Below, piece after piece: positions 7,593 through 60,891 of a DNA stretch of 64,000 nt. A program made the translations under genes and the position numbers. The DNA lies in NCBI GenBank assembly GCA_019695185.1, contig JAIBAN010000025.1, positions 1-64,000 on the forward strand. Reading direction: 5' to 3'. Every line of letters starts with the position of its first letter. Position 1 is the first letter of the stretch. The DNA is from Blastocatellia bacterium. GTDB taxonomy: Bacteria; Acidobacteriota; Blastocatellia; Chloracidobacteriales; Chloracidobacteriaceae. The notes under the pieces were generated by a model. That model was not told the DNA's origin, searched no databases, and saw only the letters and a program-made list of their open reading frames with translations.

Positions 7593-7606
7593 AAATGAAA
7601 TGTTTC

Positions 7607-7777
7607 GAGTTCCGCCTTCAGGCGGCTGTTCGGAGTTCCGCGTTTACGCGGCTGTTCAGAGTTCCGCCTTCAGGCGGCTGACAGGAAAAAATGATGGGCG
7701 TTCAATATACAATTCTGAAAACAAAATCCAGCCGCGTAAACGCGGAACTCCGAACAGCCGCCTGAAGGCGGAACTCA
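7607..7777. repeat. Cluster of GC-rich palindromes (CCGCCT/AGGCGG and CCGCGT/ACGCGG variants)
   Basis: The left block 7607-7680 holds three 26-bp units, each GAGTTCCGCC-type followed by CTGTTC. The right block 7729-7777 holds two units in inverted order. Each unit contains its own hairpin: CCGCCT tc AGGCGG, or CCGCGT tt ACGCGG. The changed bases differ on both sides of the stem, so pairing is conserved. The blocks also pair with each other. The right block overlaps the stop codon of the kinase gene. Confidence 0.85.
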
Positions 7778-10165
7778 AGACAGACCGACCTTGGTCAGCA
7801 GTTCTTTGAACCGGGCTTCGCTGCGCAACGGGTCAAACATGGGCTCGACTTTCAAAAACGCCAGAAACCCGGAGCGTTCCACATAGGCTTTTTCGAGCCA
7901 CTCCAGGGCTGCTTCGGTTTCACCCAAACCCAGATGGATAATGGAAAAATAATAGGAGGGCACATAGCGTGTCCGGCTGCATTCGGTCAGCCGGGCCAAC
8001 AGGGCACGGGCTTCGGTCTGGTCGCCGAGCAGGGCATGCGTCCGGCCCAGGCCGGCCAGGAAGGTCAGTTCTTCATTGGAAAGCGCCACTGCTTTGCGAA
8101 AGGCATCGCGGGCGGCTTCAAAATGACGTTTCTGTTCGTAGGCGGCTCCCAGGTTCCAGTAGGCAAAGCTGAAATTCGGATCCATTTCCAGCACTTTCTG
8201 GTTTTGCCGCACCGCATCGTCATAACGCCGGGCAAAGTAATAGGCCCAGGCCAGGCTGACATTCATAAAAAGGGAAAGCGGGTCCAGCCGCTGCGCCCGT
8301 TCGCAGGCGGCGATGGCTTCGTCAAGTCGTCCCGTGACCTTGCACCAGAACCCATAGCCGTCATGTGCCGTGGCATAACCGGGATTGGCTTCAAGGGCGC
8401 GTTTGAACGCCGTTTCGGCGGCGGCCCAGTCCCAGTCGTGCAACAGGTGAAAAAATCCCAGCGACGAATGTGCTTCGGCCAGTTTGGGGTCAAGTTCCAG
8501 GGCTTTGCCGGCAGCAGCTTTGGCAATTGGATAGGTTTCGTTCGGTGGCTGTCCACCGGTGGAAGACCCCAGGAAACCATAGGCATCGGCCAATCCGGCA
8601 TAGGCCAGGGCATAGTTTGGATCCAAATCAATTGCCTGCTGAAAACATTCGATGCCTTTGCGAAGCCAGATTTGAGTCCGTTTGTTACAGAAATAACGGC
8701 CTTTGAGGTACAACTGATAGGCTTCGGTGTTTTCCGTACAGCGCCGGGTCAGTTTTTTCTTTTCCTCGCCGGTCAGCTTCAGCCGGAGCTTTTCAGCGAT
8801 TTCATTCGCCATTTCCTCTTCAATGGCAAAAATATCCTCAAAATTGCGGCTGTACTGTTCCCCCCACAACTGCGCACCGTCGGCCACATCCACCAGTTCC
8901 AGCTTCAAAATCAAACGGTGGCTGCGCAACAGGACACGCCCGGTCAGAACCGCCCGCACGTTCAACTGACAGCCGATTTCCATCGGGTCCAGGGATTGCC
9001 CTTTGTACCGGAACACCGTGCTCCGGGCCATGACCCGAAGTTTTGGCAATTGGGAAAACTGGTTGATGAGCCGTTCCGTCAGCCCATCGCTCAGGTATTC
9101 GGCATCCGGGTCGGTGCTCCCGTTTTCAAAGGGCAACACCGCGAGTGAATCCACCTGCTTGCGGATGCGCTTGCGCAAAGGTCCGGTGTTGATGATTTTG
9201 GTCTGGTCGGAACTGTCGCGCACCAGTTCCAGCAAAACAGGGCCGCTCATGCCCGATTCAGGAACTGCCGTCTGCTCCAGTTCGGCTCCAAAATCCAGCC
9301 GTTGTTTGAGCCGTTTGAGGTCAATCTGAAAATCCTTGATGGTTTGGTAGCGTTCTCCCCGGTCCTTGGCGAGTGCTTTTCCGATGATACGCTCAAATTC
9401 GGCGGGAGCCTCCGGTCGCAAGGCTGAAAGCAGTGGCGGGTCCTGGTACAAAATTGCACCCAGGACATCCATGACAGTGGTTCCCTGGAAAGGCAGTTGC
9501 GCGGTGGTCAATTCATAAAGCACGACTCCCAGGCTCCAGACGTCGGAGCGGCCATCCACCTCAAGCCCACGGGCTTGTTCCGGCGACATGTAGCTGGTCG
9601 TGCCCAGCACCATGCCCGGCAGGGTTTGGGCTTTGATGACGGTGGCGGCTTCGGTGGCAACCGCCGTGCAACCGGCAGCAGTCAGTTTGGCCAGCCCGAA
9701 ATCGAGCACCTTCACATAGCCGTCGGGCCGAATCATGATATTTTCCGGTTTGATGTCCCGATGAACGATGCCGGATTGATGGGCGGCGCAGAGGGCGGCA
9801 GCCACCTGCACGCCAATTTCCAGGACATCCGGCACTCCCGGCGGTTGCGTGGCGGCATAGGCCCGCAAGGTCGCTCCTTCGATAAATTCCGTGGCAATAA
9901 AGTGAAGCTCCGCCGTCTGTCCGATTTCAAAGACGGTTAGAATATGGGGATGCGTCAGGGCTGACGTTGCCCGCGCTTCCTGCTGGAACCGTTGCATCCG
10001 CTGCGGGTCGGCGGCGACTTCGGCAGGCAGAATTTTGAGGGCGACTTTGCGCTCCAGCCGGGTGTCCTCCGCCAGATAGACCTCTCCCATGCCCCCTCCG
10101 CCTAAATGCGAGAGCAGGCGATAATGGTTGAGTTCTGTGCCGGGCGGGAGCACTTTGGGGGGCAT
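7775..10165 (-). CDS. Ser/Thr protein kinase with TolB-like and TPR regions
   Basis: 796 residues. A complete Hanks-type kinase occupies about 1-290: glycine loop GGGGMGEVY (22-30), K44 in VALKIL, HRDIKPEN near 133 and DFG near 154, with APE-like SPEQARG following. Residues about 338-480 (SLAVLPFENGS ... LSDGLTERLI) match the FlgO/TolB-N-like alpha/beta region that such kinases often carry. From about 490 to the end are TPR repeats (AYQLYLKGRYF, YALAYAGLADAYG, AEAHSSLGFFHL and more), likely for protein-protein contacts. No membrane helix is evident, so a cytoplasmic location is likely. It begins 3 bp after the Uma2 gene, probably as one operon. Confidence 0.95.
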   Translation of the reverse strand: MPPKVLPPGTELNHYRLLSHLGGGGMGEVYLAEDTRLERKVALKILPAEVAADPQRMQRFQQEARATSALTHPHILTVFEIGQTAELHFIATEFIEGATLRAYAATQPPGVPDVLEIGVQVAAALCAAHQSGIVHRDIKPENIMIRPDGYVKVLDFGLAKLTAAGCTAVATEAATVIKAQTLPGMVLGTTSYMSPEQARGLEVDGRSDVWSLGVVLYELTTAQLPFQGTTVMDVLGAILYQDPPLLSALRPEAPAEFERIIGKALAKDRGERYQTIKDFQIDLKRLKQRLDFGAELEQTAVPESGMSGPVLLELVRDSSDQTKIINTGPLRKRIRKQVDSLAVLPFENGSTDPDAEYLSDGLTERLINQFSQLPKLRVMARSTVFRYKGQSLDPMEIGCQLNVRAVLTGRVLLRSHRLILKLELVDVADGAQLWGEQYSRNFEDIFAIEEEMANEIAEKLRLKLTGEEKKKLTRRCTENTEAYQLYLKGRYFCNKRTQIWLRKGIECFQQAIDLDPNYALAYAGLADAYGFLGSSTGGQPPNETYPIAKAAAGKALELDPKLAEAHSSLGFFHLLHDWDWAAAETAFKRALEANPGYATAHDGYGFWCKVTGRLDEAIAACERAQRLDPLSLFMNVSLAWAYYFARRYDDAVRQNQKVLEMDPNFSFAYWNLGAAYEQKRHFEAARDAFRKAVALSNEELTFLAGLGRTHALLGDQTEARALLARLTECSRTRYVPSYYFSIIHLGLGETEAALEWLEKAYVERSGFLAFLKVEPMFDPLRSEARFKELLTKVGLS

Positions 10166-14226: not shown

Positions 14227-14847
14227 GTGAAGCACGCACCCGAACCGGAAGCAAAACGAATCAAAATTGAGACGGAACCGATTGAAGGGGTGGAAATGGA
14301 AGACCCGAAAATTCAGGAAATTCCTTCGGAAGACCGACAGATTCAGCAATTGAAGGCTGAACTGGCAGGATTGCAGGCGCAGCTTCATGAGCGTGACGCC
14401 GTGATTCAGAAAATCCAGGGCCGAGCTGAGGAGTTGGAGAAACAGGTTCGAACGGAAATCCATGAAACCCGGACCCGATTGGAACGGAACTTTCAACAAC
14501 GGGTCAATACCGCCCGCAATGATTTTGTGCTGGAATTGCTTTCCGTGTTTGACAACCTGGAATTGACTCTTCAGGCGGCGGAAAAGAACCAACCGGTTGA
14601 TAAACTGTTGAATGGCATCAATGCCACCCAGCACTTACTCCATCAGGCGTTGCAACGCCAGGGCATTGAGCGCATCGAAGCGGTCGGTCAAGCCTTTGAC
14701 CCCAACGAACATGAAGCAATTGATACGGTTGAAGTGGAACCCGAGCAGGTGGGCCAGGTCGTGGGTCAATTGCGGGCCGGGTATCGGGTTGGCGACCTGT
14801 TGTTGCGACCGGCGTTGGTGTATGTGGGAAGAGAAAAGCAGAATTGA
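14227..14847 (+). CDS. grpE: Nucleotide-exchange factor GrpE
   Basis: 206 residues. A charged N-terminus leads to a long coiled coil (about 35-110, IQQLKAELAGLQAQLHERD onward) and then the GrpE head: ARNDFVLELLSVFDNLELTL, the GI-x-x-THHLL-like GINATQHLLHQAL, VGQAFDPNEHEAIDTVE, and the beta domain GYRVGDLLLRPALVYV. GrpE releases ADP from DnaK and dimerises through the helix. The start is GTG at 14227 with AAAGGAG at 14213-14219. No dnaK or dnaJ is in the window. Likely co-transcribed with hsp20. Confidence 0.95.
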   Translation: MKHAPEPEAKRIKIETEPIEGVEMEDPKIQEIPSEDRQIQQLKAELAGLQAQLHERDAVIQKIQGRAEELEKQVRTEIHETRTRLERNFQQRVNTARNDFVLELLSVFDNLELTLQAAEKNQPVDKLLNGINATQHLLHQALQRQGIERIEAVGQAFDPNEHEAIDTVEVEPEQVGQVVGQLRAGYRVGDLLLRPALVYVGREKQN

Positions 14848-14967
14848 AAATTGAGAATTGAGAATGAATTCAATCCACATTGGCTTGAAAAACACAAATG
14901 AGCCTGACAATCCCAAATCAGAGAGCCATCATTTCAATCTCAATTCTCAATTCTCAATTCTCAATTC
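14844..14967. repeat. TTGAGAA heptamer inverted pair between grpE and the ClpC-like gene
   Basis: The left arm 14844-14864 starts at the grpE stop (TTGAAAA, TTGAGAA, TTGAGAA). The right arm 14934-14967 contains four to five TCTCAAT units. The arms are separated by about 70 bp. Confidence 0.82.
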
Positions 14968-20634: not shown

Positions 20635-20640
20635 ACCCAA

Positions 20641-20745
20641 GGAAAAAGGAAAAAGGAAAAAGGAAACCCTGAGTCCCTTGGTACACCCTTTCAGACTCCG
20701 GTTTTGGTTTGCTCTTTTTCCTTTTTCCTTTTTCCTTTTTCCTTT
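20641..20745. repeat. GGAAAAA / TTTTTCC heptamer inverted pair before glpK
   Basis: The left arm 20641-20666 is GGAAAAA repeated three times plus GGAAA. The right arm 20714-20745 is four to five TTTTTCC units. The right arm ends only five bases before the glpK ATG, leaving no Shine-Dalgarno sequence. Confidence 0.88.
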
Positions 20746-29122: not shown

Positions 29123-29125
29123 GGG

Positions 29126-29249
29126 AGTTTTGAGTTTTGAGTTTTGAGTTTTGAGTTTGTCCCAACCTGATTTCTGAACAGTTGAGCCAAGGGGTGGTGA
29201 GGTCATTTCAACTCGGAACTCGGAACCCAAAACTCAGAACTCAAAACTT
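29126..29249. repeat. TTTTGAG heptamer array with degenerate inverted partner
   Basis: 29126-29160 is five tandem GAGTTTT units; 29211-29249 is the inverted arm in degraded form (AACTCGG, AACTCGG, AACCCAA, AACTCAG, AACTCAA). It lies between ribA and moaA and ends 3 bp before the moaA start. Confidence 0.82.
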
Positions 29250-41424: not shown

Positions 41425-41546
41425 GAATTGAGAATTGAGAATTGAGAATTGAGAGAGAACCACCATTTCCAAACGAAGTTCAGCTCTCAACTTACCTGGG
41501 TTGCATTCTCAATTCTCAATTCTCAATTCTCAATTCTCAAATTTTT
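41425..41546. repeat. TTGAGAA heptamer inverted pair (pheT-zapB gap)
   Basis: The left arm 41425-41455 has four GAATTGA units; the right arm 41505-41546 has five TTCTCAA units and runs into TTTTTT. The arms are 49 bp apart. The right arm ends five bases before the pheT stop. Confidence 0.88.
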
Positions 41547-41551
41547 TCTTG

Positions 41552-43600
41552 TTAGCGGATTTCTGCTCCAAACCGGGACTGTAACAAGGACGTTACCTGC
41601 CCATGCTGCTGGCTGACTTCCTCGTCTGTCAAGGTGCGATCTTCCAAACGATAGACTAAATTCAGCATGAGCGAGTGTTTTCCGGCTGGAATTTGTTTTC
41701 CCGTGAAAACCTCCCGTAAATTGACCGCCTTCAATGCCGGAAGTCCCAGGTTAAAGACCTCGGTCCGAATGGTGGCAAAGGCAATATCCGTATCGAAAAA
41801 CGCCGAAATATCACGCTCCACGGTAGGGAACTTGGGCAATGGACGATAGGGTTTGAAGGTCTGCGGACGCTCCAACAGGGCAGGCAGGTTTAGTTCCGCC
41901 ACAAACACCGGTTGTTTGAACCGATACAGTTCGGCTGCTTTCAGGCTGACACGGCCAACCCAGCCGACCGGAGCCCCTTCCAGCAGGACTTGGGCGGTCT
42001 GCCCGGTGAAAAAGAGCCCAGGCAGGTCACCTTCGGGCACGACAAACGCCGCCGTGTCAATTTGCAGCGCCTCAAGCATCCGTTCCAACACACCTTTCAA
42101 TGTGTAGAATGATTCCATGCGTGCCGAGGTGCTCCAGTCATCCACTGTTGGTGAACCAGTGATTGCCAGCGCAATCTGTTCCCGTTCTTCAAATCCTTTG
42201 GTCGTTCCCAAAAAGATTTTGCCAACCTCAAACAAACGCAGATTGGCTGTCCCATAGTTGAAGTTATGGGCCACTGCATTGAGCAGTCCCGGCAAGAGGG
42301 TTGTGCGCATCCGACCCTCGTGTTTATCGAGCGGGTTGAGCACCAGCAATCCCTCTTGGGAACTGACCAGACTCAGTTTGGCTTCGTTCATCCAGCTAAA
42401 AGAGATGGCTTCGGAAAAACCCTGTCCAGTCAACGTCTGCCGAATCCGACGACGTTCAGATTCACCTGGGAGGTAACTGCCAGCTCCACCCCAGCCGGGA
42501 AGGGTGGTCGGAATAGCATCATAGCCAACCAGCCGTACCACTTCTTCAATCAGGTCTTCTTCGATATTGACATCCCGCCGGTAACTGGGAGCCACTGCCC
42601 GCCAGGCTTCGCCCTGGGCCACGGTTTCAAGCGTAAATCCGAGAGATGTCAAAATGGAAACAACCCGTTCCGGTTCCACTTCAACTCCGGTCAGGGCCGC
42701 AATCCGTTCGTGGCGCAGCATAATCGGGGAACGCGCCTGTGGTTGGGGATAGACATCAATCACCCCGGCCAGGATTTCCCCTCCGGCTACTTCCTGAATC
42801 AACTGGGCGCAACGATTGAGTGCCGTCACCACCATTTCACAATCAGCCCCGCGTTCGAACCGGTGCGAAGCTTCCGTGTGCAGTTCGAGCGCACGAGCCG
42901 TCCGTCGGACCTGATTGGGTTCAAAATAGGCACTTTCGAGCAACACATTGACTGTTGTATCGGAAATCTCGCTGTCCCCGCCACCCATAATGCCGCCCAT
43001 GGCCACTGCCTCTTTGGCATCCGCAATCACCAACATGGAAGGATTGAGCGTGCGGTCATTGCCATCAAGCGTTGTCAGAGGTTCCGCTTCGCGGGCCGTC
43101 CGGACAATAATGTGGTGGTCGGTGACTTTGTCATAATCAAAGGCATGGAGCGGGTGTCCCAATTCAAGGAGGACGAAATTCGTGACATCCACCACATTGC
43201 TGATGCTGCGTTGACCAACCGCTTCCAGCCGTTTCACCAGCCAATCAGGTGAAGGGCCAACCTTGATGCCGCGAATCACCCGAGCAGTGTAGCGTGGGCA
43301 CAAGTCCGGAGCTTCAATCGTGACCCGGGCGGCTTCTGCTGTCGGGGCCGTCACTTCTGCGAAAGCGATGGCCGGCAGCTTCACCGTGGTTCCGCAAATG
43401 GCGGCTGCCTCACGGGCAATACCAACATGTGACAGCGCATCCGGACGATTGGAAGTCAAATCGAAATCCAAAACAAAATCATCACCCTGCGGGTCAACTG
43501 AATCCACTGCCAGTCCCACACAAGTCAGTTTTTCAGCCAGTTCACGTGGCGAAAGTGAGGTTTCAACGTATTGACGAAGCCAGTTGTAGCTAATTTTCAT
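41552..43600 (-). CDS. pheT: Phenylalanyl-tRNA synthetase beta chain, short form
   Basis: 682 residues, against about 795 in E. coli. It begins [30 protein letters not shown] and then passes directly to [23 protein letters not shown], so the OB-fold tRNA-binding (EMAP) domain normally inserted near residue 40 is absent. The B3/B4 editing region, B5 domain ([24 protein letters not shown]), catalytic-like core and C-terminal ferredoxin-like anticodon-binding domain ([13 protein letters not shown] ... [15 protein letters not shown]) are all present. It pairs with PheS as an alpha2-beta2 enzyme charging tRNA-Phe. A TTCAGGG array lies four bases upstream of the ATG, and no Shine-Dalgarno is seen. 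Confidence 0.96.
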
Positions 43601-43604
43601 AAGA

Positions 43605-43714
43605 GGATTCAGGGTTCAGGATTCAGGGTTCAGGGTTCAAAAAGTTGAGGTGTGGAATCAATCAAGTGGATTGAATTTCAAACCCTGAACCCTGAACCCT
43701 GAACCCTGAACCCG
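43605..43714. repeat. TTCAGGG heptamer inverted pair (pheS-pheT gap)
   Basis: The left arm 43605-43642 (about five TTCAGGG-type units) and right arm 43679-43714 (five CCCTGAA units) flank 36 bp. The pair fills the gap, ending next to the pheS stop and four bases from the pheT start. Confidence 0.88.
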
Positions 43715-44810: not shown

Positions 44811-44825
44811 GAGACAATCGCAGGG

Positions 44826-44959
44826 AGAATTGAGAATTGAGAATTGAGAATTGAGAATTGGGAATTAAAGCCTGCCGGTTTTACTTCAACTTGATGCAGC
44901 GAGAGCAAAAAAACGCTGGAGGATTTCACTCTCAATTCTCAATTCTCAATTCTCAATTA
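44826..44959. repeat. TTGAGAA heptamer inverted pair (GNAT-pheS gap)
   Basis: The left arm 44826-44865 has five to six TTGAGAA units, the last degraded; the right arm 44929-44959 has four TTCTCAA units and overlaps the GNAT stop codon. Confidence 0.88.
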
Positions 44960-46281: not shown

Positions 46282-46372
46282 GATTCAGGATTCAGGGTTC
46301 AGGGTTCAGGGTTTTATCTTTTGGTAGATTTTGATGAAAACCCTGAACCCTGAACCTTGAACTCTGAACCCT
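46282..46372. repeat. TTCAGGG heptamer inverted pair (infC-rpmI gap)
   Basis: The left arm 46282-46316 (GATTCAGGATTCAGGG then two more units) and the right arm 46337-46372 (CCCTGAA, CCCTGAA, CCTTGAA, CTCTGAA, CCCT) flank only 20 bp. Confidence 0.87.
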
Positions 46373-46956: not shown

Positions 46957-46989
46957 GTTGTGGCGCGTGTCCGCCAGGCCCACGGCCAA

Positions 46990-47084
46990 GGGTTCAGGGT
47001 TCAGAGTTCAGGGTTCAGGGTTTTCTGTCAGGAGTGGAGGATTTCTTCAAACCCTGAACCCTGAACCCCGAACCCTGAACCCTG
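46990..47084. repeat. TTCAGGG heptamer inverted pair (thrS-infC gap)
   Basis: The left arm 46990-47023 (four TTCAGGG-type units) and right arm 47049-47084 (CCCTGAA units, one CCCCGAA variant) flank 25 bp and end two bases from the thrS stop. Confidence 0.88.
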
Positions 47085-50417: not shown

Positions 50418-51779
50418 ATGAGCGATTCCTTTATAATTGGTATAAAGCTTGTGAGCGTTGGCGGACTCGTGTTCGCCAACGCTTTCTTTGTGGCGGCTGA
50501 ATTTGCTTTGGTGGCAGTCCGCCGGTCACGTATTTCCACCCTGGCTGAAAGCGGGAACCCACGGGCCGTAGTGGCATTGCGGGTGCTTGACAATCTGGAT
50601 GCGGTTATTTCAGCCACCCAGTTTGGCATCACTCTGGCCAGTCTGGCGTTGGGCTGGATTGGCGAAGAAACCATGTCGCACCTCTTTGAGCCGGTCTTTC
50701 ACGCCATTATTCCGGCTTCCTTTCCGGCCACACTTTCGGCCCATGCCTTTTCGGTGGCGATTGCCTTTGCGCTCATCACCTTTTTACATATTGTGCTGGG
50801 GGAGTTGGCCCCCAAGTCGATTGCCCTTGAACGAGCCGAAAACGTGGCTTTGTTTGTGGCCCGCCCGTTGGAGCTTTTCTATCACGCCTTCAAGCCGTTT
50901 ATCTGGCTGCTCAATAAATCAGGCAATGCAGTGTTGCGACTGATTGGGTTTCATGGAGCTGCCGGGGAGCACCAGCAAGCCTATACGGAAGAAGAAATCC
51001 GCCAACTGGTTTCCCTCAGCCATCTCAGCGGCCACCTCAATGCCGACGAGCGGGAACTGATTCATAATGTTTTTAACTTCACCAGCCTCAGTGTGCGGGA
51101 AGTCATGTCCCCGCGTCCCACCATCATGTCGGTTGAGTTAGGGGCATCGTTTGACCAACTGGTGCAGGCGTTTCGGGAGTCCGGCTATTCGCGGCTGCCG
51201 GTTTATGAAAAAAATCCCGATAACATTATTGGTGTGGTCCATAGCAAAGACCTGTTTAAGCATATTGCCCGGTCTAAAAACTTCACCCTGAAATCCATTT
51301 TGCGCAAACCGGTTTTCATACCGGATACGGCTTCGCTGGATGCCGCCCTGCGCCAGTTGCGGACTGCCAAATCCCCCTTGGCCTTTGTGGTGGATGAGCA
51401 TGGCAGCGTCGAAGGCATCGTCACCATTGAGGACCTGTTGGAGGAAATCGTTGGGGAAATCCATGATGAACACGACGTGGAAAGCGAAGAAGCCGTCTAT
51501 TGGCCACAGGAAGACGGGTCCGTGCTCTTCGATGGCCGGATTTCCATCCGCGAAGCCAATCGGAAACTCGAATTAAACCTGCCGGAATCGGACGATTACG
51601 CCACTCTTGCCGGTTTTCTCATGACCCAGGCCGGAAAACTGCTCACCCAAAACGAAACCATTGCCTATCAGGAAATTGTCTTTACCGTCGAAGGTGTCGA
51701 GGGCCGTCGGATTACCCGCGTCCGCATGCGCCGGGCTGAAACAGCGGAGAATTCGCTGGCCCAGGCAGAAACCCCCTAG
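50418..51779 (+). CDS. CNNM/CorC-family transporter (DUF21-CBS-CorC_HlyC)
   Basis: 453 residues, an annotated 'hemolysin family' layout. The DUF21 membrane domain (about 1-190) has segments LVSVGGLVFANAFFVAAEFALVAV, ISATQFGITLASLALGWIG and AFALITFLHIVLGELAP, the last containing the family GELAPK motif. Two CBS domains follow (SVREVMSPRP, then SILRKPVFIPDTASLDAALRQL) and a C-terminal CorC_HlyC domain (LFDGRISIREANRKLELNLPE). Such proteins are linked to magnesium or cobalt efflux and membrane homeostasis. Ends near a pair of GC palindromes. Confidence 0.94.
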   Translation: MSDSFIIGIKLVSVGGLVFANAFFVAAEFALVAVRRSRISTLAESGNPRAVVALRVLDNLDAVISATQFGITLASLALGWIGEETMSHLFEPVFHAIIPASFPATLSAHAFSVAIAFALITFLHIVLGELAPKSIALERAENVALFVARPLELFYHAFKPFIWLLNKSGNAVLRLIGFHGAAGEHQQAYTEEEIRQLVSLSHLSGHLNADERELIHNVFNFTSLSVREVMSPRPTIMSVELGASFDQLVQAFRESGYSRLPVYEKNPDNIIGVVHSKDLFKHIARSKNFTLKSILRKPVFIPDTASLDAALRQLRTAKSPLAFVVDEHGSVEGIVTIEDLLEEIVGEIHDEHDVESEEAVYWPQEDGSVLFDGRISIREANRKLELNLPESDDYATLAGFLMTQAGKLLTQNETIAYQEIVFTVEGVEGRRITRVRMRRAETAENSLAQAETP

Positions 51780-51782
51780 TTT

Positions 51783-51831
51783 TGAGTTCCGCCTTCAGGT
51801 GGCTGTTTTGAGTTCCGCCTTCAGGCGGCTG
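51783..51831. repeat. Two GC-rich palindromes
   Basis: GAGTTCCGCCTTCAGGTGG and GAGTTCCGCCTTCAGGCGG in tandem, 28 bp apart, just past the CNNM stop. The first unit has one G-T wobble in the stem; the second is fully paired. Confidence 0.8.
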
Positions 51832-51838
51832 GTTTCCT

Positions 51839-56827: not shown

Positions 56828-57238
56828 ATGCGAACATTGCAAACTTCAAATTTTCTGCGCTGGGTTCTGGCTGCTGACGCAACCACCAGCGTTGTTACCG
56901 GATTGTTGATGGTATTGGACACGGAACTGCTCGAACGTCTTTTCGGATTGTCGCCGTTGTTGCTTCGGGGAGCTGGGCTGGCCTGTCTTGGTTTTGCCGC
57001 TTTCCTTTTCTATCTGATTACCCGGAAAGAAATGGCTGCGCCACTGGTGTGGGCGGTGATTGTCCTCAATGTGCTCTGGGTCGGCGACAGCTTTTTGCTG
57101 CTGGTCAGTGGCTGGGTGGCCCCGACCACGTTGGGAACGGCCTTTGTCATTACGCAGGCCCTCGGAGTGGCATTGCTGGCCGAACTGGAATATGTCGGAC
57201 TCAAAAAATCCCCGGCCCGGCCCCAGTTTGAGTTTTGA
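56828..57238 (+). CDS. Four-helix membrane protein of unknown function
   Basis: 136 residues with four membrane segments (WVLAADATTSVVTGLLMVL, LLLRGAGLACLGFAAFLFYLI, APLVWAVIVLNVLWVGDSFLLLV and TLGTAFVITQALGVALLAEL). No family recognised with confidence. AAGGAG lies a few bases before the ATG. Divergent from the MmyB-type regulator, as in pairs where the regulator controls its neighbour. The stop codon is inside a palindrome cluster. Confidence 0.78.
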   Translation: MRTLQTSNFLRWVLAADATTSVVTGLLMVLDTELLERLFGLSPLLLRGAGLACLGFAAFLFYLITRKEMAAPLVWAVIVLNVLWVGDSFLLLVSGWVAPTTLGTAFVITQALGVALLAELEYVGLKKSPARPQFEF

Positions 57239-57405
57239 GTTCCGCCTTCAGGCGGCGGTTCAGAGTTCCGCCTTCAGGCGGCAGTTCAGAGTTCCGCCTT
57301 CAGGCGGCAGTTTGGTTCATAACCTTCAGGTTATTTTCTTTGGAAGTAGAAAAATCAGCCGCCTGAAGGCGGAACTCAAAACCGCCACCTGAAGGTGGAA
57401 CTCTA
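57236..57405. repeat. Cluster of GC-rich palindromes with CCACCT/AGGTGG variant
   Basis: The left block 57236-57310 holds three CCGCCT tc AGGCGG units. The right block 57356-57405 holds one of the same and one CCACCT ga AGGTGG, inverted. The last keeps pairing through changes on both sides. It lies between the convergent membrane-protein and sensor-kinase genes. Confidence 0.85.
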
Positions 57406-57408
57406 AAC

Positions 57409-60400
57409 TCATCCGGTGGTGTCGGCGGGCAGTTCGACCGTGAAGCAGCTTCCGACGCCAATTTGGCTGCGGACGGTGATGTTTCCTCCATGCGCGGCCA
57501 CAATCCGTTTGACGATGGCCAGACCGAGGCCGACACCAAGCTGGGCATGGCTCGATTTGGCTTGCCGGTAAGGGTCAAAGAGATAAGGGATTTCCTCCGC
57601 CGGAATGCCGTCTCCGGTGTCGGTGATGGAAACAACGAGCAAGGTCAAGCCGGCTTCAACGCCGGTTCCCGGTCGGGCATGGGCTTCGATGGTGATGGTC
57701 CCACCGGACGGAGTGAATTTAATTGCGTTTGAAAGCAGGTTGGAAAAAACCCGTCCGATTTTTTCCCGGTCCGCCACAATGGACGGCAAGTCAGGCTTGA
57801 TGTCGGTGGTAACCTGAATGTTTTTGGAGCGAGCCGCCAGCCGGGTTTCCTCGGCAAATTCGCGCAAGAGCGGTTCGCTTGCCAGTTGTGTGGTTTTGAG
57901 CGTGATGCCATGTGACTCGGAACGAAACACTTCCAGGATTTCATTCACCATCGCCAGCATTTTCTCAACACTGCGGGTGGAGGTCCCCAACAGCTTCTGC
58001 ATCCCGCTTTCCCGAATCGCGTCTTCCATTTCAAACATATCAAGCGTTGCCTTGACGACACTGAGCGGGGATTTGAGGTCATGCACCAGCATGGCCGTGA
58101 AGTTGGCCTTGATTTGGTCCAATTCTTTGAGTTTGAGGTTGGCTTCCTCCAGCCGTGCTTTTTGCCCCAGAATTTCTGCATTGCGTAAAACCTGAAGGCG
58201 GTGGTTAATCATGCCGGAAGCCAGCGCCACGGCTGCCAGCGAGTACAGGGCATAGGCCCACCAGGTTCGCCAGGGGGCTGGCTTGACGGAAAAGGCGAAT
58301 TCAACCGGGCCGCTGACATTTCCGGCATAATCGCGGGCCCAGACCTTGAAGCGGTACCGCCCTTCGGGCAGGGTGGTGTATTCCTTTTTGCCGTCGGTTA
58401 CCCACGGGGACGGAGCGGCGTCCACTCCGACCAGTTGGGTTTGGTACCGGGTGTCGGATTCCCGGAAGTAGGCCAACAGGGCATACTCAAAGACCAGATT
58501 GTTTTGATTATGGTTAAACGCTTTCCCGCGTAACCCGTCCAGTTCAAACCCGGCCCAGTCTTTGCCGGCCACTCGGATTTTTTCCAAAAACAAAGGCTTT
58601 GGGGCGGTGTCATGGTTTTCCTGCCGGGGGTCAAAGACAGCCGCCCCACCCACCGTACCGACCCAAATCCGCCCGGCCTGGTCCAGCAGGCTGGCTCCCT
58701 GGTTGCATTCATTGCTGGGCAAACCGTCTTCGGAAGTAAACACATACATGTCGAATTCCGCCGGGTCACCGTGAGTCCGTGTGCGCCGGGTCAATTGGAC
58801 AATACCTTTGTTGGTGCTCAGATAGAGCCGTTTTTGGGCATCTTCCTGAACTCGAAAAACCGTGTTGTTGGGGAGTGCCGGTTGGGTTTCATCCGACAGA
58901 ACGTGCCAGGGATGCAGCGACCCATCCAGGTTTCGCCACGCCAGTCCGCCACGGGTGGCCACCCACAGCATTCGCGTCCCATCAGCTTCGGTGGTCGTTA
59001 AAAGGTCCCGTATCTGGTTGTTGGGAAGCCCGGTCTTGAAGTCCTCAACCGTCCAGGTGCCATTTTCAAAGCGGGCCAGCCCGCCATTGGTCCCGACCCA
59101 GAGCGTGACTGTGCCGGAACGGGAAACGGTTTCCCGCAAACAGTAAATCTGGTCGTTGGGAAGGCCGGAATTTTTGGTGTTGAAGACTGTCAGTTGTGGC
59201 ATTTCCGGGCGGGTAAACAGGTCCGTTTGCGGCAGCCTCGCCAGCCCGCCGGAGGTCCCTATCCATAACTGCTTCCCTTTGCCAGGGCTGGTACTTTCAA
59301 GCAGACAGAACACCCGATTGTTTGGCAGCCCGGCGCTTGTATCTATTGTTTTCCATTTCCCTTCGTGGAGGCAGGCCAGCCCGCCAAAGGTTCCGGCCCA
59401 CAACGTCCGCTTGCTGTCAGAGGCGGTTGTTTCCAGCAGGCTCAACACATTGTCATTGGGCAAGCCCGAATTTTTGGAATTGAGAATTGAGAATTGAGAA
59501 TTGAGAATTAAAGGAAAGGCTGTGGACTGGGGGAAGGGCTGAGGGCTGAGGGCTGAGGGCTGGGAAGAAGACTGAGGACTGAGGACTGAGGACTGAGCGG
59601 GTTTTTCTGAACCCTGAACCTTGAACCCTGAACCCTGATTGCACCGGGTAATTCCGCCGTCCTGGGTTCCCACCCACAAGAGCGGGTTTCCGGCTTCGTC
59701 GGTGGTTTCCAGAAAGGAAAAAACGATGTTGCTCGACAGTCCCAGCGACGTGTCAAACGCCATCCAGTCGCGCTTGTGAACCCGGACCAACCCGCCGCCG
59801 GCGGTTCCCACCCACAAGGTATGGGTTGGGTTGGGAGCCGATGATTCAAGCAGACTGATGATGGAGTTGGAGGGGAATCCGGTCGCTGTACTTAACACTT
59901 CCCAGCGTCCCTGATGGCGACAGGCCAGCCCGCCGCCCAAGGTTCCGGCCCACAGCGTGGGCTCGCCGGAAAGCGACGTGGTTTCGAGCAGGGTCACGAC
60001 ATCATTGCCGGGGAATCCCGCCCCCATTGGAATAATGGCCCACTGACTGCGACAGTAAGCAGCCAGCCCGCCGCTGGTCCCAACCCAGAGGCATTTGGCA
60101 CCGTCAGGTTCGGAGGTTTCCAGAAATGACCAGACCACATCTCCCGGCAGGCCGTTTTTAGTATCAAAATATTCCCACTGACCGGGCTTCTGGCCAGTGA
60201 ATGGCGGCTGGCTGGAAATGGTCAACACGCCCAACCCTTTGCGGGTTCCAACCCAGAGTTGCCGGTTTCCGTCGGCGGCAATGGTGTGGCACATCCGCAA
60301 AATATCCGTACTGGGAAGCGGTGCCATATCCACCCGTTGCCAGGAACCTTTGACCAGTACGGCCAATCCGCTGCGCGTTCCGGCCCAGATGACGGGTGTT

Positions 60401-60891
60401 CCGTCCGGAAGCTGTGCTTCAATGAGGCTGCGGACCTGACCGCTGGGCAATCCCTGGGTGGCATCAAAGGTGGTCCATTTGCCCTGGCGCAACATGGCAA
60501 TTCTTCCGTTGCTGCCAAACCACACACTGCCGTCAGCCGCCACCAGTATGGAATAGACATTGTTGGAAACAGCCCGGTTGGGCAGGTTGACCACGTTCCA
60601 GGCGCGGCCATTGAAAAAAGCGGCTCCATCCTGGGTGCCAACCCACAAATAACCCTTTTGGTCAAAGACCATGGCTTCGACGGAATTCTGAGGCAGCCCT
60701 TCCCGGTCGGTGAACGTTCGGGCCGAAAGCTGGCGGGAAAGCAGTGATGTTTGGAACCCTGACCCAACCGGGGGCACCGGCGGGACGGAACTCTGCCCCG
60801 ACACCGTAACACCGGTTTTCCCGTTGACGGTACCCAGGCACAAAAGAAACAACAAGATGAAACGCTGCGGACCAAGCCTCATAACGTTCAT
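57409..60891 (-). CDS. Two-component-propeller sensor histidine kinase with heptamer-array insertion
   Basis: 1160 residues. After a signal segment come many Reg_prop-type beta-propeller blades ([50 protein letters not shown]; about 50-760), a Y_Y_Y domain ([17 protein letters not shown]), one membrane helix (about 862-885, [18 protein letters not shown]) and a HisKA/HATPase core with H937 in [26 protein letters not shown] and [18 protein letters not shown]. The sensor is periplasmic. Residues about 418-472 are an in-frame insertion made of four different heptamer repeats (LSPQSS, SALSPQP, SILNS). The kinase core is a close paralogue of that at 23183-25789. No response regulator is adjacent. 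Confidence 0.93.
59477..59638. repeat. Four consecutive heptamer arrays inside a coding region
   Basis: In plus-strand order: GAATTGA units (59477-59510), GGGCTGA units (59534-59563), GGACTGA units (59570-59597) and ACCCTGA units (59608-59638). Together they add about 54 codons in frame between two propeller blades. Each matches a heptamer seen in intergenic gaps elsewhere in the window. Confidence 0.9.

Follow-up and report, generated by a model that had tools for sequence, protein, structure and literature searches.

How do four different arrays of tandem heptamers come to lie in a row, in frame, inside the gene of a sensor histidine kinase? The question is raised by a 162-bp stretch (59477-59638) in the genome of a Blastocatellia bacterium (GenBank assembly GCA_019695185.1), within a window of 64,000 nucleotides (positions 1 to 64,000 of contig JAIBAN010000025.1, here C148). 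The source genome, G000, comprises 8.33 Mb in 222 contigs and is 99.7% complete; its family also includes small two-contig genomes of 3.7 Mb. Here we report that the stretch is probably a compound in-frame insertion of a dispersed class of repeats, similar to repetitive extragenic palindromic (REP) sequences and miniature inverted-repeat transposable elements (MITEs), that has been tolerated in a surface loop. Gene positions were obtained with our own simple codon-usage gene caller and do not represent a standard annotation. The host gene and the parts of the insert are as follows.

57409 to 60891, minus strand: host gene, sensor histidine kinase of 1160 amino acids (open reading frame (ORF), translation, Pfam, PDB relatives).
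59477 to 59509, plus strand: array 1, GAATTGA x 4.7, perfect (Tandem Repeats Finder (TRF) and period analysis).
59510 to 59534, no strand: linker between arrays 1 and 2, possibly with a decayed GGACTG unit (sequence).
59535 to 59561, plus strand: array 2, GGGCTGA x 4 (sequence and period analysis).
About 59570 to 59597, plus strand: array 3, GGACTGA x 4 (sequence, TRF and period analysis).
59607 to 59638, minus strand: array 4, GGGTTCA x 4.6, 92% match, convergent to arrays 1 to 3 (TRF and period analysis).

The kinase carries Reg_prop blade motifs, a weak Y_Y_Y domain, HisKA and HATPase_c (Pfam). Fourteen blade motifs (WVGT-like) were counted by eye in the translation, and comparison with the PDB identified the solved sensors 4a2l, 3v9f and 3ott as sequence relatives. 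The genome is rich in related kinases (347 matches at E <= 0.001, kinase-domain matches included); in one scan of contigs of named genomes with the kinase, the sole match was a kinase-domain match in Arenimonas.

The four arrays are present where the first-pass annotation of this DNA had placed them and are set apart by short unrelated linkers. They do not share a single orientation; the first three point one way and the last is opposed to them, which is the convergent layout seen in this repeat class throughout the genome. In coding order, the insert reads GGGTTCA (sense), followed by GGACTGA, GGGCTGA and GAATTGA (all antisense), and encodes a product rich in Ser, Pro, Gln and Leu. Both of its ends grade into native codons (CAGGG at CNQG; TTCTCAATTCC before KNSGLPND), and its end in coding order directly meets the conserved KNSGLPND of the next blade. 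The arrays are not a product of chance: the window contains 26 strong runs of period 7, and none of comparable strength occurred in 20 first-order Markov copies of it. Among the other periods from 2 to 30, such runs were found only for 14 and 21, which are harmonics, and for 26, which belongs to a separate family.

The stretch adds about 54 residues without loss of frame, as had been claimed, since 162 nt equal 54 codons and the ORF of 1160 amino acids remains open. The accompanying argument, that three heptamers make seven codons and an array therefore stays open, is sound in its arithmetic; openness fails for words that contain a stop and requires a stop-free orientation. A single heptamer equals 2 1/3 codons, so that the frame is kept solely by multiples of three units. 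When the addition or removal of one or two units was modelled, translation ended at codons 459-482 and the kinase domain was removed.

To judge whether the segment is an insertion, the kinase was aligned with nine relatives, namely paralogues and the two best matches in other genera (51-52% identity). Eight of the nine have about 7 residues (GRWxxFxT-like) where the kinase has about 52, and the ninth (L006, C78_65374) shows a short extension in which no arrays were detected. Many paralogue matches break off near residues 412-422 and restart near 464-476. The segment is thus missing from the paralogues and from the best matches in two other genera, as an insertion between propeller blades would predict, and a conserved linker of the same length was not found among the aligned relatives. 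The reading of the segment as an insertion is well supported by these alignments. Among the propeller proteins in the sampled fifth of G000 (1.652 Mb), which also served for the census of arrays given below, a comparable array insert occurs only in the kinase C86_243076; it differs from the one in the window and lies at the same blade junction. In an AlphaFold model, the insert lies between propeller strands and is modelled with less confidence than any other part of the propeller, with a predicted local distance difference test (pLDDT) score of 20-27; the model was built on a two-sequence alignment and is itself poor (mean pLDDT 50.5). The insert is therein predicted to be a disordered loop, presumably of little consequence.

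The arrays of the kinase belong to a class that is abundant in the genome. The sample contained 484 arrays with about three or more units, which extrapolates to about 2,400 per genome. The commonest words were GGACTGA (146), GAATTGA (111), GGGTTCA (97) and AAACTCA (22), with RRRYTSA as the common form. Four tandem RRRYTSA words were matched 1,886 times in the whole genome of G000 (57 with the reversed control), 911 times in the related genome G003 (6), whose word set is partly different, and 49 times in G001 (3); none were found in the small two-contig genomes of the family. Four is the commonest unit number (214 of 525 arrays), followed by five (142 of 525). The arms built of GGACTGA are exactly 30 nt long in 27 of 56 cases, and most begin with AGGACTG and have GACTGAG at the inward end. 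Over half of the arrays consist of GGACTGA, GAATTGA or AAACTCA and contain no GGG, which occurs only in GGGTTCA-like words. Other short periods are few among the arrays, with the exception of period 9. Arrays of 9-bp words (AGTCTTGGG / GACTCCCAA) also pair convergently (e.g. C86:235015-235177 and C86:245763-245916 in the sample); there are 51 of them in 1.65 Mb, of which 8 are in genes and 13 have a heptamer array within 150 nt.

Pairing of the heptamer arrays is strongly directional. Among neighbouring RRRYTSA arrays within 200 nt of each other, 134 pairs are convergent, 9 divergent and 9 in the same direction, and in 119 of the convergent pairs the two arms share one word; for all words together, 153 convergent pairs stand against 16 divergent ones (p = 3e-29). 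The convergent pairs enclose a spacer of 25-130 nt. Most arrays are intergenic, their arms adjoin gene ends, in many cases no more than 10 nt from a stop or start codon, with 190 of 228 arrays pointing away from the nearest gene end.

The spacers bear on how the class is dispersed. Within the sample, 47 pairs of spacers can be aligned across 60% or more of the shorter member with 70-97% identity, while the identity of their 100-nt flanks is about 0.5, which is the level expected by chance. Homologous spacers between unrelated flanks indicate that elements disperse as units, and at least part of the class appears to spread as arm-spacer-arm units. For most spacers no relative was detected in the sample, and the count of dispersed pairs is an undercount because the sample covers a fifth of the genome. 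The elements share several features with MITEs: they are short and non-autonomous, have terminal inverted repeats, and occur as copies scattered between unrelated flanks. In G000, a shared core (TTCGAATATCAGGAAATTTGAAG...) is combined with mixed arm words in a family of at least 12 elements (C86:229016, C72:16560, C72:125071 and nine others), which is a good candidate for tracing movement. The mobility proposed for the elements in the first-pass annotation agrees with these spacers and with the variation in unit number between elements.

Within an element, changes of unit number in one arm are independent of those in the other. Copying from arm to arm (hairpin correction) was rejected, since arm lengths are uncorrelated and the arms of the same element are no more alike than those of different elements; GGGTTCA pairs alone share variants above the shuffled level. 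The view that spacers are, as a general rule, native intergenic DNA to which arms were added was likewise rejected, since spacer families recur between unrelated flanks.

Arrays are found in genes far less often than expected from the coding fraction (36 of 484, or 7%, in a sample of which 87% is coding). Eighteen genes hold arrays at least 40 amino acids from the gene ends, and 25 of 27 interior arrays have a stop-free orientation. Beyond propeller kinases, the hosts include the essential DNA ligase LigA, SMC, CHAT and an AddB-like nuclease, and the related arrays inside LigA and SMC bear out the claim that the elements move into or expand in coding DNA. The receiver (REC) domain of the hybrid kinase C78_17633 contains a complete convergent element, in frame, in the loop that joins helix 3 to strand 4. 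The paralogue C34_106 has an element in the same loop with a spacer that cannot be aligned. In SMC, a single arm is added in the hinge region, and the relatives lack it. In LigA (L095:13815-16028, minus strand, and L127), GGGTTCA arms in G000 and GAGTGGA/GAGTTGA arms in G001, which belongs to another genus, occupy the same two places. These arms flank a loop containing QPSLFES, which resembles a sliding-clamp binding motif; G003 has the loop without arms, and G002, G004 and G007 lack the loop. Two CHAT-type proteins of G000 (C81:62518-66204 and C72:155034-158159) carry different arrays, one of them 157 nt long, in the same loop (LQxxPFxALPxP...PLIxxHEIxxLPSAS).

These observations can be brought together as follows. 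The insert would belong to a class of elements built of tandem 7-bp words, which frequently form a pair of convergent arms, each of 4-5 units, on either side of a short spacer. Insertions would land widely, and selection would remove those that break genes. The insert in the kinase may have survived because it lies in a solvent-exposed loop between blades, contains no stop and has a net length that keeps the frame. After insertion, individual arrays would have gained or lost units.

Several points weigh against an origin by insertion of a mobile element. The exact empty site was inferred from homologues at about 40-56% identity, and the insert itself, in which three words face a single opposing one, does not form a clean arm-spacer-arm structure. 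No target-site duplication was seen in the elements inspected by eye, and no transposase that moves the arrays was identified. REP-associated tyrosine transposases (RAYT, Y1) were rejected as movers, because the 11 Y1_Tnp matches had single arrays at 4 loci and no flanking pair. Syntenic gaps between G000 and G003 showed no clear gain in length where G000 alone has arrays. The spacer in LigA is a loop of older origin that relatives share, so the arms look as if they were added there; the addition of arms to a native spacer, rejected as a general rule, may hold for this gene. The single arm in SMC, with little else, fits growth in place, and some arrays may have grown from short native seeds.

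Growth in place without any mobile element, in which replication slippage would have extended short native seeds in a rapidly evolving loop, is unlikely as the origin of the insert in the kinase. It would agree with the merging of the insert ends into native codons, with the lone array in SMC and with the independent variation of arm lengths. It leaves unexplained that the four arrays of one loop use the few words of this genome, which also form hundreds of arrays elsewhere, and that elements with homologous spacers occur at unrelated sites; slippage alone does not account for convergent pairing either.

A more radical proposal, that arrays stay in place while their 7-bp words change, each lineage converting its arrays to the words that it currently uses, appears rather doubtful. 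The clearest case is LigA, where the arms of G000 and G001 differ at the same two places, and in several syntenic gaps of G000 and G003 the array pairs differ in their words. Against it weighs that permissive loops, as in CHAT and REC, attract independent insertions. A conservation of array positions across genera was rejected, the suggestive cases notwithstanding: in 41 syntenic gaps between G000 and G003, arrays were present in both genomes in 12, in one only in 10 and 7, and in neither in 12, which is near chance and no clear excess. If true, rewriting would imply a templated or conversion-driven mechanism.

It is very unlikely that the arrays serve as a phase-variation switch (contingency locus), in which the gain or loss of units would turn the kinase on and off by frameshift. 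Unit numbers do differ between elements, and the modelled changes of one or two units halt translation, with three units restoring the frame. Typical contingency loci have long perfect tracts, whereas the units here are few (4-5) and partly imperfect. The same arrays are also present in LigA and SMC, where switching off is expected to be lethal, and this argues against a switch.

Little credence can be given to an adaptive linker, that is, an array kept to adjust how the blades are spaced or how the sensor binds its ligand. Propeller proteins are somewhat over-represented among the genes with interior arrays (5 of 18, versus 6.7% of coding residues; p = 0.006 in one unplanned test), and the other propeller kinase with an array insert has it at the same blade junction. 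More tolerant loops would explain this enrichment equally well, loops of LigA, SMC, REC and CHAT also host inserts, and the insert is predicted to be disordered. The frame restricts variation to three-unit steps, and the truncation of the kinase by any change of one or two units speaks against a smoothly variable linker. The 'variable sensor linkers' suggested in the first-pass annotation therefore found no support, also in view of the shortness of the arrays and the presence of housekeeping genes among the hosts; a usefulness of the insert to the sensor is unsupported, as nothing shows any. That the segment is an ordinary, conserved linker of the kinase family, for which only the in-frame residues speak, can practically be dismissed, as the aligned relatives lack it.

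The origin preferred here, insertion of a dispersed repeat, invites comparison with the closest known systems. GGGNATC and GGGGA(C/T)T heptamers of Xanthomonas and Nostoc have been discussed in the context of G-quadruplexes (Rehm et al. 2015, PMC4692102); about 90% of the xanthomonad arrays are intergenic, with 70-75 convergent inverted pairs per Xanthomonas genome. Both systems share with G000 the dispersed 7-bp unit and the preference for four units, as well as the intergenic bias, the convergent pairs, the location near ORF ends, the orientation away from them and the scarcity between divergent genes. The repeats of G000 differ in their words, several of which occur per genome, in about ten times more arrays per genome and in the documented in-frame insertions in core enzymes. 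Most of their words also lack GGG tracts, so that a three-tetrad G-quadruplex is not expected and the shared layout cannot depend on G-quadruplexes in G000.

TAACTGA direct repeats of Beggiatoaceae, Cyanobacteria and Bacteroidetes, which include stop-free copies in genes (MacGregor 2015, PMC4679880), are also heptamers that are mostly intergenic and, in genes, mostly stop-free, and TAACTGA is close to GGACTGA. Unlike those of G000, these arrays are mostly single and located just upstream of start codons; inverted pairing is nearly absent and related words are rare. Rickettsia palindromic elements (RPEs) are small, palindromic and inserted in frame in unrelated protein genes (reviewed in PMC10969869), much like the palindromic elements of G000 in LigA and in the REC domain of the hybrid kinase. 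The sequences of RPE families are conserved, about 150 bp long and code for a conserved peptide, whereas the arms in G000 are tandem 7-mers and most spacers are without detected relatives in the sample; this comparison is one of descriptions. Tandem repeats in ORFs of Borgs encode disordered stretches (PMC9879509), as is predicted here, but the unit in G000 is 7 bp long, common throughout the genome and dispersed in convergent pairs. The repeats of G000 are therefore filed under neither the quadruplex family nor the RPEs, which they resemble in the respects listed.

No paper on such heptamers in Acidobacteriota was found in a limited literature search. The architecture itself is already known; new are the lineage, the word vocabulary and the in-frame copies in core genes. 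Heptamer repeats were previously known from a few phyla and tentatively linked to G-quadruplexes or translational control. The layout in G000 (4-5 units, convergent pairs, adjoining gene ends) is mostly free of GGG and must have a different cause. Well-placed insertions, such as those found in frame in LigA, SMC and sensor kinases, can help to trace the entry of repeats into genes and the origin of disordered loops.

Elsewhere in the window, the following convergent elements were annotated.

1920 to 2090, no strand: GAATTGA arms; spacer 70% identical over 114 nt to that of the element at C86:276815.
14842 to 14967, no strand: GAATTGA arms.
20639 to 20745, no strand: AAAAGGA arms (TRF).
29125 to 29248, no strand: AAACTCA-type arms (TRF).
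41425 to 41540, no strand: GAATTGA arms.
43604 to 43713, no strand: intergenic, GGGTTCA arms; fills the gap between gene ends at 43600 and 43716.
44825 to 44958, no strand: intergenic, GAATTGA arms.
46282 to 46369, no strand: intergenic, GGGTTCA arms.
46989 to 47084, no strand: intergenic, GGGTTCA arms; adjoins gene ends at 46989 and 47086.

The window also contains a separate, palindromic 26-bp repeat (GAGTTCCGCCTTCAGGCGGCTGTTCA-like), which occurs in tandem and in convergent pairs at 7601-7783, 51779-51835 and 57206-57434. In the copy at 57358-57434, the stop codon of the kinase lies within one arm.
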